From: Spirochaetota bacterium | Lineage (GTDB): Bacteria; Spirochaetota; B62-G9; DRHN01 | Direction: 5' to 3' | Assembly: GCA_020342115.1 (NCBI GenBank) | Contig: CP070841.1 | Coordinates: forward strand, 3,486,212-3,525,495 | Length of the DNA stretch: 39,284 nt | Shown: positions 1,702 to 35,244 of the stretch, piece after piece | How the letters are laid out: the number at the start of each line of letters is the position of its first letter | Position numbering within the stretch: the stretch's first letter is position 1 | The notes under the pieces: generated by a model | What the model was told of the DNA's origin: nothing | Databases searched by the model: none | The model's input: the letters and a program-made list of their open reading frames with translations, nothing else | Translations under genes and position numbers: made by a program

Positions 1702-2796
1702 TTGGGAAAGGAAAAAGATTATAATAAGAAACAGGGCCTTCGGTACTTCAGAAAGAAGCAGTGGGTGAAGGCAATATCATTTTTAGAAAAGGCTCTTAAG
1801 GAAAATAAAAATCCGCAAGTATTTCTCTTTTTGGGTTATGCATCACTGTACACCGGGGATGTCGATGGAGCAAGGCGCTATTTTAAAGGAGGTTTACTTG
1901 AAAAAGAGGACGACCCGGACCTGCTAAAAGGCCTTGCGTATATCTATCTTAAGGATGAAAGACTGGAGGACGCAATAGGTCTATGGGGTGAAGTCCTCGA
2001 TAAGCGGCCTAGCGAGAAGATTGTCAAAAGGGCGCTGGAAAAGTTGAGAGAAACCGAAGATGTTAAAGAATTTGCCCAAAAAGCAAAACTAACGGAATTT
2101 CTCTCTCCCAGACTTCCTATCCTGGTAAAGTTAAAACCTTACCTGCTTGGTATTTATATAACTGTTGGAATCATCATTATAGGAGTTGTGTTTTATACAA
2201 CCCCGTTATACAAAAAAGCTCTCCAGAGATTCTATCCAGAAATCATCGAGCTTGATACTATAGAACTTCCCGAAGGGCCAAAAACCGAAGAGGATCAGAC
2301 ACAGGCTCTCTACTCACTGTCTGAAGAGGAAATAGAAAAAAACTTCGTTCAGGTAAAAAGATATGTCTATAAAGAAAAAATAAATTCAGCAATTATCCTT
2401 CTAAACAAGGTTATGCTTTCCAATGCCTCACCTATAGTAAAGGAGAGATTCGATATATTATACACCTACATTGATCCGCCAGATCCTCTCTCCATTGACT
2501 ACAACCCGCAATTCCATGAGATCATCAAAGAGCCGGGTATATATATGGGGGCTTATGTGTTATGGACAGGAAGGATAGCAAATCTGAAGAAGGAGAAGGA
2601 GAGTGCTCACTTTGACCTTCTTGTAAACTATGAGGATCAGGATACAATTGAAGGAATTGCACATGTAGACATAGACGGCGTGTACTATATCGAGAATCGT
2701 CAATCAGTAGAAGTATTCGGTTCCTATGAGAAGTATGATACTGAAACGGGCAAGCTTCTTATCCGCGGTATATTGATCAGGGACCTAAGATTATAA
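1702..2796 (+). CDS. TPR-repeat protein with one membrane helix and a C-terminal OB-like domain
   Basis: A 364-residue hypothetical membrane protein. Residues about 8-110 form tetratricopeptide repeats (for example GLRYFRKKQWVKAISFLEKA and the following LGYASLYTGDVDGARRYFKG). A single hydrophobic helix lies at about 146-168, followed by an acidic linker. The last 80 residues look beta-rich and OB-like (GAYVLWTGRIANL, then VEVFGSYEKYD). The TPR part precedes the helix and there is no signal peptide, so the repeats are probably cytoplasmic and the C-terminal part periplasmic. The start is TTG at 1702, preceded by GATGAGG. It follows efp by 33 bp. I do not know its function; TPR domains generally mediate protein-protein contacts. 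Confidence 0.8.
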   Translation: MGKEKDYNKKQGLRYFRKKQWVKAISFLEKALKENKNPQVFLFLGYASLYTGDVDGARRYFKGGLLEKEDDPDLLKGLAYIYLKDERLEDAIGLWGEVLDKRPSEKIVKRALEKLRETEDVKEFAQKAKLTEFLSPRLPILVKLKPYLLGIYITVGIIIIGVVFYTTPLYKKALQRFYPEIIELDTIELPEGPKTEEDQTQALYSLSEEEIEKNFVQVKRYVYKEKINSAIILLNKVMLSNASPIVKERFDILYTYIDPPDPLSIDYNPQFHEIIKEPGIYMGAYVLWTGRIANLKKEKESAHFDLLVNYEDQDTIEGIAHVDIDGVYYIENRQSVEVFGSYEKYDTETGKLLIRGILIRDLRL

Positions 2797-20858: not shown

Positions 20859-21587
20859 TTATTTTTCTATCTTAAATTTTTTCATATGATCTAGAATCCA
20901 ATCTGAATCTCTCACCTGACAGTACATTTCTCCGAGCACCCGTGTGGAGGCGCGGTGGAACTCCTCATCGGGAGATGCTGTTCCATCTTCAACATATGTC
21001 ACAAGATAGCCTAGATCGCACCCATTACGAACTGTATCCTCGACGCATGAGTTACCCCAGACACCGCAGGCGATGAAAGATTTTATGCCCTGATATCGGA
21101 AGATATTATGAAGATTTGTTGAGAGAAAAGTGCTTCCTGTTACTTTGGAGAGAACAGTTTCACCTGGAAGTGGTTTTAATTCTTCAATTATTTCTATCTC
21201 AGGGCTCCCTATATTAGGTTGAAGAAGCCTTCCCATATCTTCAGCATGTTGATCAAAACGGAGCCTCCAGATTGGAGGCATATCTGAAGCATTTTCAAGC
21301 CGGCTTGCAAAGAACACATGAACGACGGTAAGATCATGTTTGCGAAAAAATGCGAGCAGTTTCTGTATAGCTGGAATGACGGTGTTGTACACGCGCCTGT
21401 AGTAATAGACCTGGGAATCATTAGTTGTGCCAGTGCCTCTTGCACCAATAAGAAGCCACTCCCTGTTTGCATCGAAATTCTGCATATCGATAATGACAAG
21501 AGCTGTTGTTATGGGATTAATCCACTCCTCATCGGAAATTCCGAACCAGCCATTCGGATTGAGTTTTAACCCGTATTTAACGATCAT
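20859..21587 (-). CDS. Isochorismatase-family cysteine hydrolase
   Basis: A 242-residue alpha/beta hydrolase of the isochorismatase-like family. The catalytic triad is visible as D34 (VIIDMQNF), K148 (LSKVTGSTF) and C181 (GVWGNSCVEDT), so it should be an active amidohydrolase-type enzyme. Members include N-carbamoylsarcosine amidase, nicotinamidase, ureidoacrylate hydrolase and isochorismatase; it is not closely recognisable as any one. The 25-residue N-terminal extension before the first core strand is somewhat long. The start at 21587 has AAGGGG nine bases upstream. It follows the minus-strand MttB gene by 57 bp, suggesting co-transcription and perhaps release of a methylated amine from an amide or carbamoyl precursor (inference). 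Confidence 0.88.
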   Translation of the reverse strand: MIVKYGLKLNPNGWFGISDEEWINPITTALVIIDMQNFDANREWLLIGARGTGTTNDSQVYYYRRVYNTVIPAIQKLLAFFRKHDLTVVHVFFASRLENASDMPPIWRLRFDQHAEDMGRLLQPNIGSPEIEIIEELKPLPGETVLSKVTGSTFLSTNLHNIFRYQGIKSFIACGVWGNSCVEDTVRNGCDLGYLVTYVEDGTASPDEEFHRASTRVLGEMYCQVRDSDWILDHMKKFKIEK

Positions 21588-21644: not shown

Positions 21645-23054
21645 CTAAGCAATAATCTCTTCCAACTTTTCAACTGTCCCTGGATCAATGTACTGAGCAC
21701 GGGGCTCAGAAAGGATTTTCTGTGCCTTTTCATGGGCTTCCATATAGACATCCTTCGACCCATCCTTAATCCAGCGCTCATAGAGTGTCCTGCATGAAAT
21801 CTCGGGATACCAATTTTCATTTTTGAAATGTTTGATCGTATGTTCCTCCTCGAGAAATGACCCCCATGTACCGATCTTATTGATTACATCAACTGCTAGG
21901 TGGTCATCTGTGACCTCGATTCCCCTTTGAAAACGGCGGAGCATACTGAAAACCTCATGGTCAAGAACAAGGGATTCATAAGACACGGTAAGTCCGGTAG
22001 AGAACATCCCAAGGTTTACAATTACATCAATTCCGGCGCTGATACAGGCCATAGCTGATAAAGCCTTTTCCCAGCTACACTGCTGGTCTACGATATGAGC
22101 ATCTGTATCAAACCCAATTGAATGGCTTGGGATCCCATAGAAACGGGCCATCTGTGCTCCTGCAAGGCGAAGCAACATGGTCTCAGGAGTAGCAATGATT
22201 GGGTTTCCCTCTCTCATGTTAAAGAGGGTGTGTGCATTGCAGTACACCACAGGGAATCCCTCCTTCAGTATTTGTGAAATGGCAATGCCAGAAAGAACCT
22301 GTGCATTATGCTGTACTAAGTGGCCTGCAAGAGTGACGGGTGACGTTGCCCCGGCCATTGGAGCAGGGAGTATGTAAAAGGGTACACCGTTTGCGACAGT
22401 GTTCATAACGATTTCGCTTGCAGAAGGTGTCCATTCTTGAGGCGCTGATGGAGAGATATGACATGAAACAACCGGCTTTGATCCAATATCATCACTACCG
22501 ATGGCGATTTTTATCATCTGATATACTGCATCTGCAATGACACCCGTATCAGGAGCAATAATGATATGTTTACATGTATTTTGAAGTAGCATTGAAACTG
22601 CATGGGCTTCTGCCTTTTGTTGCTGTACATCCTGGGGCAATCCCTGGACTCCAACTATACTGATGTCACTCAACTGATCGGCAATCCACGCGAAATCTCC
22701 GACCTCCTTTTTTGTAATTGGTTTTCTTTTTCCTGTATTATAGTCCAGTGTAAATGTCCCATCGAAACCATTCACTGCATGAGTGATTCCCTTTCCTATC
22801 TCAATTGGGCTTTCTCCATCCCGTGCGTATAGTTTGATCGTGTTAGGTGCTTTCTTAATAAGGTCTTCTACAATCTGACCTGGGAATTTTGCAACTTTAT
22901 GCTCCCAATCAATTTTCACACCTGCGCTTCCTAATTGTTTTAATAGCTCATCATTGAGTATTCTGGATCCAGTGTGCTCCAGTACTTCAAGTGATGCTGT
23001 ATGAACCGCCTCTACTTCCTTCTTGGTTAATGCCTTGTAGAATTCAATTTTAAT
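21645..23054 (-). CDS. MttB-superfamily corrinoid methyltransferase, copy 3 (apparent AUU start)
   Basis: A non-pyrrolysine MttB homologue. Taking the first GTG (22919) gives only 424 residues, without the conserved N-terminal helices. The frame remains open 45 codons further and encodes KIEFYKALTKKEVEAVHTA and VLEHTG, which match MKLQILEVLSDEEIKKIHEA and ILEQCG of copy 4 residue for residue. The codon in the Met position is ATT at 23054, preceded by AAAGGAG at nine bases. No ATG, GTG or TTG lies between it and the upstream TGA. Counted from ATT, the protein has 469 residues, and its conserved Q325 and W328 (DQQCSWEK) carry the same numbers as in copy 4. It belongs to the 'QxxWEK' sub-lineage. 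It ends with TAG, followed at once by another stop. Either AUU initiation is used or the start has been lost. Confidence 0.82.
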   Translation of the reverse strand: MKIEFYKALTKKEVEAVHTASLEVLEHTGSRILNDELLKQLGSAGVKIDWEHKVAKFPGQIVEDLIKKAPNTIKLYARDGESPIEIGKGITHAVNGFDGTFTLDYNTGKRKPITKKEVGDFAWIADQLSDISIVGVQGLPQDVQQQKAEAHAVSMLLQNTCKHIIIAPDTGVIADAVYQMIKIAIGSDDIGSKPVVSCHISPSAPQEWTPSASEIVMNTVANGVPFYILPAPMAGATSPVTLAGHLVQHNAQVLSGIAISQILKEGFPVVYCNAHTLFNMREGNPIIATPETMLLRLAGAQMARFYGIPSHSIGFDTDAHIVDQQCSWEKALSAMACISAGIDVIVNLGMFSTGLTVSYESLVLDHEVFSMLRRFQRGIEVTDDHLAVDVINKIGTWGSFLEEEHTIKHFKNENWYPEISCRTLYERWIKDGSKDVYMEAHEKAQKILSEPRAQYIDPGTVEKLEEIIA

Positions 23055-23063
23055 TGTATGCCA

Positions 23064-23070
23064 CTCCTTT
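23064..23070 (-). promoter_or_regulatory. Shine-Dalgarno serving the ATT start
   Basis: AAAGGAG on the minus strand lies nine bases before the ATT at 23054-23052. An in-frame TGA overlaps its first bases, so translation of this frame cannot begin further upstream. This site decides the start of MttB copy 3. Confidence 0.65.
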
Positions 23071-23232
23071 CAGATTTATTATATATAAGCGCAGGGTCAA
23101 AATCTACAATATATTAAATGCAAGACCATATTCTTTTTTTAATTAAAAAAGGTTGACCAAGCCTCACGAACACATAAAATATGAATTATAAGTAAAGGAT
23201 TGAGAATGATATTGGTGCCTGGCATTACACGT

Positions 23233-24891: not shown

Positions 24892-26319
24892 ATGAAACTT
24901 CAAATATTAGAGGTACTGTCAGATGAAGAGATAAAAAAGATTCATGAAGCATCGATCGATATTCTTGAGCAGTGCGGAGTAAAAATTTACAACAAACGTA
25001 TGCTCGATTATCTAGCTGAAAAGGGTATCGTTGTAGATTCAGAAAATCAGATTGCCCACTTTACACGTACAGCTATCGAGGATTCGCTTAATTCGATTCC
25101 CAGAACTTTTGAAGTATTTAACAGGGAAGGTAAGTTTGCATTTGTTTTGGGCGATGGCATTTCAAAAATTGCTGCAGGGCATAATGCTATATTCTGGGTT
25201 GATACCGATACTGGTAAAACCCGTTATGCAACAGTTAATGACGTTGAACTATGTGCACGTATCTGTGATGATTTAGAGTATATTGATATGGTTGGGACTC
25301 CTGTTATGCCACAGGATGTAAAAGACCCAAAATCAACCTTGCTCTATGGTGTAAAAGCGGTAATAGAAAACAGTAAAAAACCTGTGTTTTTTTCTACTGA
25401 CAATGAAAAGGTTAATAACTCGGTTATCGGTCTATTAAAAGCTGCTTTTGTGGGAGATATTAAGAATGAAGTTTACGGTATATCACAGCTTTCACCAACA
25501 TCGCCACTCTACTGGGAAGAGAACGTAATAAATGCCATCATGGATACAGTTGAAACTGGAGTACCGTTGGCTATTCTTCCCGAGCCAAATGCGGGTGTGT
25601 CGGCACCCTATACACTAGCTGGCCTGCTCACAATGAACAACGCAGAATGTCTATCAGGGCTTGCTATGATTCAGATGCTGAGGCCCGGCACAAAAGTTCT
25701 GTATGCCAATTCTTGGACCACAACTGACATGAGTAATGCTGCAGCTCTCGTGGGATCAACGGAAACATCTATATGTCGAATAGCTGGAGCACAGCTTGCA
25801 AGATTCTATAATGTGCCTTCTCACACTACAGCGCCGAACTCTGATAACCATGCACATGACGAGCAAAATGCCTGGGAGAAAACATTTAGTATGTTCTGTT
25901 CAGTTGGTGCTGGTAACGACCTCGTAGTCAACTGTGGCATGTTTGCAACCGGAATGACATTCAGCCATGAGCAGTTGATTATGGATGAAGAGATATCGGC
26001 TATGTCTAAAAGGATTGCCGAAGGTATACAGGTATCTGATGATACAATAGCGGCTGATATGATTACAAAGATTGGTCCCGGGCCTGCTGGTGATAAATAT
26101 TTAACTGCGGAACATACACTTGAGTGGCTACGATCTGATGAATATTTATTTCCCCGAGTTTCAGTAAGGGGTGCATTTGCTCTCTGGGAATCGACCGGTA
26201 GCAAGGATACATATCAACTGGCACGTGATAAGGTTAAAGAGTATAAAAAAATGAAACCTGCTCGGATAGATACAGTAAGAATGGAAAAACTTAGTGAAAT
26301 AGTAAAAAGTTTCATTTGA
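24892..26319 (+). CDS. MttB-superfamily corrinoid methyltransferase, copy 4
   Basis: A 475-residue non-pyrrolysine MttB homologue of the 'QxxWEK' sub-lineage (Q325, W328, E329). With copies 3 and 5 it shares MPQDVK near residue 140, the SAPYTLAG/NAECLSGL barrel motif and a YANSWTTTDM segment. The 'QxGxE' group reads differently at these places. The ATG has GGGAG upstream. The 202 bp gap before it contains an imperfect stem (TGGTAG, CTACCA) but no clear promoter. An imperfect hairpin follows the stop. It sits between a URO-D gene and a DegT aminotransferase. The substrate is unknown; closeness to copy 3 suggests related donors. Confidence 0.9.
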   Translation: MKLQILEVLSDEEIKKIHEASIDILEQCGVKIYNKRMLDYLAEKGIVVDSENQIAHFTRTAIEDSLNSIPRTFEVFNREGKFAFVLGDGISKIAAGHNAIFWVDTDTGKTRYATVNDVELCARICDDLEYIDMVGTPVMPQDVKDPKSTLLYGVKAVIENSKKPVFFSTDNEKVNNSVIGLLKAAFVGDIKNEVYGISQLSPTSPLYWEENVINAIMDTVETGVPLAILPEPNAGVSAPYTLAGLLTMNNAECLSGLAMIQMLRPGTKVLYANSWTTTDMSNAAALVGSTETSICRIAGAQLARFYNVPSHTTAPNSDNHAHDEQNAWEKTFSMFCSVGAGNDLVVNCGMFATGMTFSHEQLIMDEEISAMSKRIAEGIQVSDDTIAADMITKIGPGPAGDKYLTAEHTLEWLRSDEYLFPRVSVRGAFALWESTGSKDTYQLARDKVKEYKKMKPARIDTVRMEKLSEIVKSFI

Positions 26320-29023: not shown

Positions 29024-30436
29024 ATGCAAGGTAAGCCTAAAATTGGAATAATTTTTATAACATCTGGATGGTTTCGGGATGTTGGGCTTCAGAGCCCATC
29101 TTCTAGCCTTACAAATGAAGTGGATAATATTGCAAAAGAAATTGTTAAAAGGCTTTCTAAGTTTTTAGTTCCTGTTTACAGGGGGGTCCTCTATTCCGAA
29201 GACGAAGCCAGGCATGCAGCAGAAGAGATAAAAAACGAAAATGTTGACGGCATCATTATAGCGCCACTGATGTGGTGCGAGGATCAAATTCTCCGAGCAG
29301 CCTTAAAGCAACTACCGAGGCTTCCATCCCTTCTGTGCCTTTTTCTACCCTCAAAATATCTACCCGATTTTGTCGAATATCAGCAAATGTTGAAGGGATC
29401 GGGTTTAGTAGCAATACTGCAGCTGAGCGGATTTCTAAAAAGAGAGGGTTATCTTTATAAGACTGTAACAGGTTATTATGAAGATACTGATATTTATGAT
29501 GAAATAAGGGAGCATTGTCTTGCTTTCAAAATTCTTTCGAGCATGAAAAATGTAAAATGCGGGGTTTTGCCTTTTCGATGCAACCAGATGTCTACTACAT
29601 ATATCGATGAGTTTACTGTACGAAAACTCTACGGTATTGAACTGCACTACCTTGAATTGCAGCGATTTCAAAAAGAAGCTCAGAAAGTCTCTAAAGATGA
29701 TATTGATAAATTCAAGAAAATCCTAAAAAGTGAAGGTCATGTAGTTGAGGTTGACCAAAGAAATCTTACTGAAGGAATAAGGTACGCTATTGCCATGGAA
29801 AAAATTCTTACTGATGAGGGAATTAGTATCCTTGCTATGAACGATATAATTGAGGAGATGCATGACTGCTTTGGTTTGCGACCATGTCTCACCAGTCCCG
29901 GACTTTCATCAGCAGGTATTGTTGTTACCATGGAAGCAGACATTGCAGCAGGTATTGCAATGTATGTGCTCAGTAAATTTACTGCCAAATCACCATTTTA
30001 TGCCGAGCTTTACACTGCTGACCTTGAAAACAATGCATTTCTCATGGGGCATCCCGGTTATCACGATAATATTCATCACGATGAGGATTATCCTGTAAAA
30101 ATTGTTCCGGATGTTGAATATAAGAACTCGGATCCATTTACCGGTGCATGCTCCTTTTTCAAATATATGCCCGGACCCGTGACTGTGGTTAATTCAGTGT
30201 ACAATGGTGAGAGGCTCAGGTGGACAGTTTTTGAGGGTCATTCTCTTCCGGGCCCTCCAAAGTTGGAGGGCTCCAGTCATATCTTCTGTAAGATCGAAAA
30301 ACCGATAAAAGAGTTTTGCACCAGCGTAGTTCAGGTTGGTGTAAGCCAGCACTGGATTGTTGTTCCCGGTCACATTATGAAAAATCTTGAAAATCTCTGT
30401 ACATGGTTGAATATAGAATACATTGCTGTTGAGTAA
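29024..30436 (+). CDS. L-fucose/L-arabinose isomerase-family protein
   Basis: A 470-residue protein of the FucI/AraA superfamily (COG2407 type). The N-terminal domain begins KIGIIFITSGW and continues with NVDGIIIAPLMWCEDQ. In the C-terminal half, VTMEADIAAGIAMYVL holds E304, in the place of the first metal-binding glutamate. E328 (FYAELYTADLENN) lies 24 residues on, where FucI has an aspartate, and H343 (MGHPGYHD) follows. With these ligands it should bind Mn and isomerise an aldose or ketose, but the Asp-to-Glu change and low overall likeness leave the substrate open. GGAGG is upstream of the ATG, with a promoter at 28965-28993. It is followed by a hairpin-rich gap and a DegT/Gfo-Idh pair, suggesting a sugar-derived substrate. 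Confidence 0.82.
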   Translation: MQGKPKIGIIFITSGWFRDVGLQSPSSSLTNEVDNIAKEIVKRLSKFLVPVYRGVLYSEDEARHAAEEIKNENVDGIIIAPLMWCEDQILRAALKQLPRLPSLLCLFLPSKYLPDFVEYQQMLKGSGLVAILQLSGFLKREGYLYKTVTGYYEDTDIYDEIREHCLAFKILSSMKNVKCGVLPFRCNQMSTTYIDEFTVRKLYGIELHYLELQRFQKEAQKVSKDDIDKFKKILKSEGHVVEVDQRNLTEGIRYAIAMEKILTDEGISILAMNDIIEEMHDCFGLRPCLTSPGLSSAGIVVTMEADIAAGIAMYVLSKFTAKSPFYAELYTADLENNAFLMGHPGYHDNIHHDEDYPVKIVPDVEYKNSDPFTGACSFFKYMPGPVTVVNSVYNGERLRWTVFEGHSLPGPPKLEGSSHIFCKIEKPIKEFCTSVVQVGVSQHWIVVPGHIMKNLENLCTWLNIEYIAVE

Positions 30437-34561: not shown

Positions 34562-34602
34562 TTTAACAATCCAGCTGATAGGAGGAGAAGATAAAAAATT
34601 CA

Positions 34603-35244
34603 ATGCAACCAACAATAGAAACTCTACGAAAGGCGATCCAAGAATATAACAGTGGGCTGGCCTTGAAAACAGCACAAGAGATTGTAGATCAAAAGATTGA
34701 TCCACTTGTTGCCATTAATGCAATGACTGAGACTATCAGAGAAATAGGTGAAGCTTTTGGGCAGGGAAAATTATGGTTGCCTGACCTTGTTGGAGCTTCA
34801 GATGCGATGCAGGCTGCGTTACCGGTATTGGATGAAGAGATACAAAGAAGGGGTGAGCATAGAGATACGAGAGGTGTGGTCATTGTTGGCGCTGTATTCG
34901 GTGATATACACAGTATTGGCAAGACGATGGTTGCAGCACTGCTGACAGCATCCGGATTTCAAGTGGAAGATTTAGGTGTTAACATTCAATCAGAGCAATT
35001 TATTGAGGCAATAAAGAGCCACAATGCAGATATTCTGGCAATGTCCGCACTCATGACGACAACCATTGCGGAGCAAAAGAAGGTAATTGAAGTGCTTAAA
35101 GAAACAGGCCTGAGGGAAAAGGTAAAAGTTATGGTTGGAGGAGCAGCAGTAACCGAGGAGTTTGCAAAAGATATTGGGGCTGATGGATATGATCCTACTG
35201 CACCGGGTGCTGTAGAGCTTGCAATGAAACTGATCGGAAAATAA
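34603..35244 (+). CDS. Methyltransferase cognate corrinoid protein (MttC/MtbC-like)
   Basis: A 213-residue methyl carrier. Residues about 1-85 form the helical cap domain (IETLRKAIQEY, then IDPLVAINAM, LWLPDLVGASDAM). Residues 87-213 are the cobalamin-binding Rossmann domain. The DxHxxG signature is present as D101-I-H103-S-I-G, so H103 should replace dimethylbenzimidazole as the lower cobalt ligand. GGAAVTEEFA later in the fold closes the nucleotide-loop pocket. It accepts a methyl group from an MttB partner and passes it to a second methyltransferase. GGAGGAG is 15 bases from the ATG, a rather long spacing. It sits between MttB copies 5 and 6 and is the only corrinoid protein in the window. 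Confidence 0.95.
   Translation: MQPTIETLRKAIQEYNSGLALKTAQEIVDQKIDPLVAINAMTETIREIGEAFGQGKLWLPDLVGASDAMQAALPVLDEEIQRRGEHRDTRGVVIVGAVFGDIHSIGKTMVAALLTASGFQVEDLGVNIQSEQFIEAIKSHNADILAMSALMTTTIAEQKKVIEVLKETGLREKVKVMVGGAAVTEEFAKDIGADGYDPTAPGAVELAMKLIGK

Follow-up and report, generated by a model that had tools for sequence, protein, structure and literature searches.

A putative AUU start codon in an MttB-superfamily methyltransferase gene of a Spirochaetota bacterium

The window considered here is the whole 39,284-nucleotide stretch of Spirochaetota DNA that was analysed, and on its minus strand, at positions 21645 to 23054, lies the gene termed MttB copy 3, which encodes a corrinoid methyltransferase of the non-pyrrolysine MttB superfamily (PF06253). 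Counted from an ATT at 23052 to 23054, the frame runs through 469 open codons to a TAG stop (21647-21645), and it is bounded upstream by an in-frame TGA at 23070 to 23072. Between the TGA and the ATT stand only the codons AAG GAG TGG CAT ACA, with ATG, GTG, TTG and CTG all absent. A Shine-Dalgarno (SD) sequence, AAAGGAG (23064 to 23070), is placed nine bases 5' of the ATT, the spacer being TGGCATACA. The first canonical in-frame start is a GTG at 22917 to 22919, which codes for residue 46; it is preceded by an SD of AGGA only and follows the first helix-strand-helix of the protein. An earlier note, made on this DNA from its letters, had described an N terminus encoded in frame upstream of the first GTG, with no ATG, GTG or TTG between it and the TGA, and both statements hold: 45 codons of conserved N terminus precede the GTG at 22919. 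Just 3' of copy 3, on the same strand, an isochorismatase-family hydrolase gene with an ATG start occupies 20859 to 21587 (PF00857, 108 bits), and the two genes are probably co-transcribed. A further frame, opening at a TTG at 23100, ends at a TAA (23052-23050) that overlaps the copy 3 ATT by one base. Translational coupling through this frame was considered and set aside, as the TTG has no SD and no such overlap is seen in the orthologue L009.

The copy 3 product matches PF06253 with 315.9 bits over residues 3-469 (gathering cut-off 25). Against TIGR02369, the model of the pyrrolysine trimethylamine methyltransferase, it scores 415.1 bits, below the equivalog cut-off of 525, and the frame contains no TAG that might serve as a pyrrolysine codon, nor any other internal stop. 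It is thus by Pfam and by fold a non-pyrrolysine member of the MttB superfamily, outside TIGR02369. An AlphaFold2 model, built from an alignment of chosen homologues (A1), has a mean pLDDT of 94.5, with the blocks covering residues 11-60 at 98; its N terminus consists of a helix (11-27), a strand (30-32) and a second helix (35-43), all at pLDDT of about 98. Foldseek matches the model over the whole chain to solved MttB and MtgB structures (7xcl, 9yce, 2qne and 4yyc; TMq 0.91-0.95). Copy 3 therefore has both PF06253 and the full-length fold (9yce, 2qne, 7xcl) in common with MtgB, MtpB, MtcB and MtyB of the non-pyrrolysine MttB superfamily, while the solved members of the superfamily are only about 30% identical to it and differ from it in start codon.

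Three orthologues are available for comparison, at L009, L010 and L218, with 68%, 64% and 57% identity to copy 3, respectively; the last is truncated (G005:C508). All three carry ATG in the alignment column of the copy 3 ATT, six codons before a conserved Lys-Val/Ala-Leu, behind the SD sequences AAGGAG, AGGAGG and AAGGAG. Copy 3, L009 and L010 form one group in the tree with support of 100/100. The TPR-protein gene beside L010 shares 62% identity with the gene at window positions 1702-2796; also adjacent are EF-P and ferredoxin-type genes, similar to genes at the window's left end, and a 31%-identity relative of the gene at 29024, so that synteny with the copy 3 locus is partly shared. Among the 392 genomes of the phylum that were searched, the only full-length orthologues were L012 and L013, which are the L009 and L010 loci themselves. 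Two DNA searches added no strain copy of the copy 3 region, and no genome of the same species was found; the nearest named relatives of the source genome in the searches are metagenome-assembled (MAG) spirochaetes.

The source genome, in which the window lies on a 3.53 Mb scaffold, holds 40 matches to PF06253, of which four are C-terminal fragments. The start regions of the other 36 were read, and in four of these the N terminus falls within gaps of N. In the 32 that are readable a canonical ATG, GTG or TTG stands near the family start in 31, copy 3 being the sole exception, and all 24 of the homologues in A1 have a canonical start in the same region (23 ATG, 1 GTG). The earlier note had placed the ATT nine bases after AAAGGAG in the position of an initiator codon, and the coordinates and the orthologue column agree on this; moreover, its Gln325 and Trp328, numbered from the ATT, carry the same numbers in copy 4 (24892-26319) numbered from its ATG. 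Since the ATT sits in the exact initiator column of three out of three orthologues, its position is not a matter of chance. The same ATG in every orthologue also implies that the ATT is derived in the lineage of the window, and that a lineage-specific change from ATG to ATT has occurred rather than the retention of a conserved regulatory AUU.

The gene itself shows no decay. Relative-rate counts of unique changes in copy 3 and L009 against three outgroups gave 19/34, 22/37 and 20/30, and those in copy 3 and L010 gave 33/37, 33/42 and 27/39. Copy 3 has the fewer unique changes in all six comparisons (19-33 as against 30-42), with chi-square above 3.84 in one of them. There is no sign of relaxed constraint on copy 3, to the extent that these counts would register it, a very recent loss being invisible to them. 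Copy 3 is probably an intact and functional methyltransferase gene.

That AUU can serve as a start in this organism is indicated by infC, which encodes initiation factor IF3. In the source genome this gene (L081:1483; G000:C1:1712590) has an ATT behind GAGGTGA and lacks a canonical start in or just before its conserved N terminus, which implies that AUU initiation exists here. The gene was located in six of eight genomes of the order, and six codons ahead of the IF3_N match stands ATT in five (G000, G001, G002, G005 and G006) and ATC in the sixth, G007; in G002 an in-frame TTG is also present two codons before the match. As read from its sequence, the AUU start of infC would agree with the known habit of this gene, whose near-cognate start is described as kept in other bacteria and as serving autoregulation (PMC9410913).

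How unusual copy 3 is within the scaffold was gauged over 1.88 Mb (53% of it), in which 1275 gene-like ORFs were found, 1114 of them within the length and score limits. Thirty-seven of the 1114 have a coding-like stretch of at least nine codons before the first canonical start, and copy 3 ranks second among them by score; the one ORF above it (L174:753-2045) belongs to a gene that an in-frame TGA breaks in two, and most of the 37 proved on reading to begin at a normal ATG, with nothing remarkable upstream of it. An SD match of at least seven bases at the best canonical start is seen in only 69 of 704 gene-like ORFs. No excess of ATT was found at SD-spaced positions that lack a competing canonical start (3/73 in the 1.88 Mb), a count of limited sensitivity in that its filter drops infC, a known positive. 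A stricter count over 1.08 Mb found ATT at 4 of 35 SD-spaced positions, two of them in one gene, again with no clear excess. A lineage-wide surplus of ATT starts is not supported by either count.

Two other loci with ATH codons near an SD were noted along the way. The gene for a metallo-beta-lactamase-fold hydrolase at L126:11707-12333 (minus strand) has an ATA behind AAAGGAG, and carries ATC where five out of five close-matching relatives carry ATG. At window positions 34582-34603, where a corrinoid-protein gene has its ATG (34603), an in-frame ATA further upstream lies nearer to an AGGAGG than the ATG does.

The assembly deserves a description of its own. It is a MAG whose contigs are joined by gaps of N, and 153 of the 155 N runs in the sampled part of the scaffold are exactly 100 long. 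Overlapping contig ends diverge by 0-9%, as expected for a mixture of strains, so errors or minor alleles are likely near edges. Some overlaps are near-identical (e.g., L134/L177, L136/L207 and L175/L181), three of them being exactly 141 bases; the 100-N joins together with these overlaps suggest short-read contigs from a strain mixture. At one contig end the V-ATPase subunit D gene, atpD, reads ATT at L076:1527 and ATG at L122:445 in the overlapping contig end, and the first ~140 bases of that overlap contain only two differences, both T versus G. Across 17 pairs of overlapping ends (6747 aligned bases) there are 199 transitions, 101 A/C or G/T, 54 A/T and 22 C/G substitutions, with the counts for the pair L118/L194 inflated because a gapped alignment was treated as gapless; nothing striking in the way of a G-to-T signal appears in this spectrum. 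A scan of 1.08 Mb for genes split in the same frame, with pieces containing N skipped, returned 19 pairs that by eye are mostly ordinary operon boundaries. L174:753-2045 (minus strand) is interrupted by its one TGA and L080:10353-11210 (minus strand), which adjoins an N gap, by one in-frame TAA, each a probable nonsense base. A uniformly high error rate was considered and dropped, as two likely nonsense cases are too thin a basis for a rate.

Three other explanations of the copy 3 ATT have to be weighed. The ancestral ATG may have mutated recently to ATT in a gene that is redundant within a family of about 40 members and now silent or nearly so, its decay yet to come. The derived state of the ATT, set against ATG in three out of three orthologues, fits this account, as do the many paralogues and fragments of MttB that the genome contains, which make redundancy of copy 3 plausible. 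Against it stand the 469 open codons, the absence of any surplus of unique changes and the retained SD; in addition, the evidence of infC that AUU is usable in this genome means that a change from ATG to ATT need not silence the gene. On balance we regard such a loss as unlikely. It is quite unlikely that the organism really has ATG and that the ATT is a consensus error or a minor-strain allele of the metagenome assembly. A single base separates ATT from the ancestral ATG, the contigs have strain-variant ends, atpD shows precisely this pair of codons at one contig end, and the in-frame stops of L174 and L080 show that suspect bases occur elsewhere; yet the copy 3 ATT lies in a gap-free window of 39 kb and more than 16 kb from its nearer end, whereas 141 bases separate that of atpD from a contig edge, and neither a variant copy of the region in its own genome nor any other sign of error in copy 3 was found.

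Initiation at the internal GTG, which would yield a protein of 424 residues, is hardly credible. The codon at 22919 is the first canonical one in the frame and has its weak AGGA upstream, but a start there would discard residues 1-45 and with them the helix-strand-helix of residues 11-43, which is a confident part of the fold, as well as the conserved columns L9, L25, G29 and G45. None of the homologues in A1 starts at that position, and the strong AAAGGAG would be left idle.

The reading that we favour, at a probability of roughly 0.6, is that an ancestral ATG became ATT in this lineage and that copy 3 has remained intact, the AUU serving, after a strong SD, as a weak start. The alignment, the state of the sequence, the absence of decay and the ATT of infC are what the analysis shows; initiation at the AUU, a reduced yield and an effect of IF3 are inferences. 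The AAAGGAG, retained at the usual spacing, would position the 30S subunit on a weakly structured leader, whose fold is put at -6.5 kcal/mol (z 1.13), compared with -17.5 and -13.5 for the leaders of two orthologues that have ATG. The fMet-tRNA would then read the AUU as a near-cognate start, as is required for infC in this genome. The product would be the full-length protein with an N-terminal Met, made in much reduced yield, perhaps one-tenth of that from AUG if published reporters in another bacterium are a guide, and initiation might be tuned by IF3. In Staphylococcus aureus, reporters for starts at AUU or AUA, each with an extended SD, gave about 10% of the output of AUG in poor medium (PMC13009471). 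It is important to emphasize what counts against AUU initiation: the ATT is conserved in none of the three relatives, and a recent start loss would leave an identical intact ORF. The earlier note had proposed AUU initiation and had named beforehand an ATG at the orthologous codon as evidence against it. Such an ATG is present in all three relatives, so the proposal is supported in part; what speaks for it is the strong SD, the intact and constrained ORF, the place of the N terminus in the fold and infC at AUU.

Genes other than infC that start at AUU are known, though rare. Escherichia coli pcnB is reportedly limited by its AUU start; like copy 3 it is a gene not involved in initiation, and it differs in that its limitation has been reported, while the AUU of copy 3 is known here from sequence alone. 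Two sources give pcnB as having an AUU start outside infC (PMC4245954, PMC9410913). The S. aureus genes cvfC1 (AUU) and ccpN (AUA) likewise combine a near-cognate start with a strong SD, and their starts are presented as mapped by Ribo-Ret and conserved (PMC13009471), unlike that of copy 3 with its ATG orthologues. Within this genome and order, infC resembles copy 3 in having an ATH start after a strong SD and a conserved N terminus with no canonical start inside it or directly ahead of it, but it keeps its near-cognate start across the order, whereas the copy 3 ATT occurs in one genome only. Copy 3 thus has an ATT in the initiator column at SD distance, with no canonical start in or ahead of its conserved N terminus, and its orthologues do not share the ATT; judged by its sequence, copy 3 probably adds a new member to the small known group of AUU-start genes.

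A broader conjecture is that this spirochaete lineage tolerates AUH starts outside infC, and that ATG starts drift to ATT, ATC or ATA behind strong SDs (copy 3, perhaps also the L126 hydrolase gene and atpD), setting single methyltransferase paralogues at a low, IF3-tuned dosage; we consider it very doubtful. For the gene at hand, gene finders limited to ATG, GTG and TTG would trim the copy 3 protein by 45 residues or call the gene broken. If the AUU start is real, a catabolic enzyme would join the short list of bacterial AUU-start genes outside infC, and copy 3 would offer a simple case of a start-codon change within a large paralogous family in which the SD has been kept.
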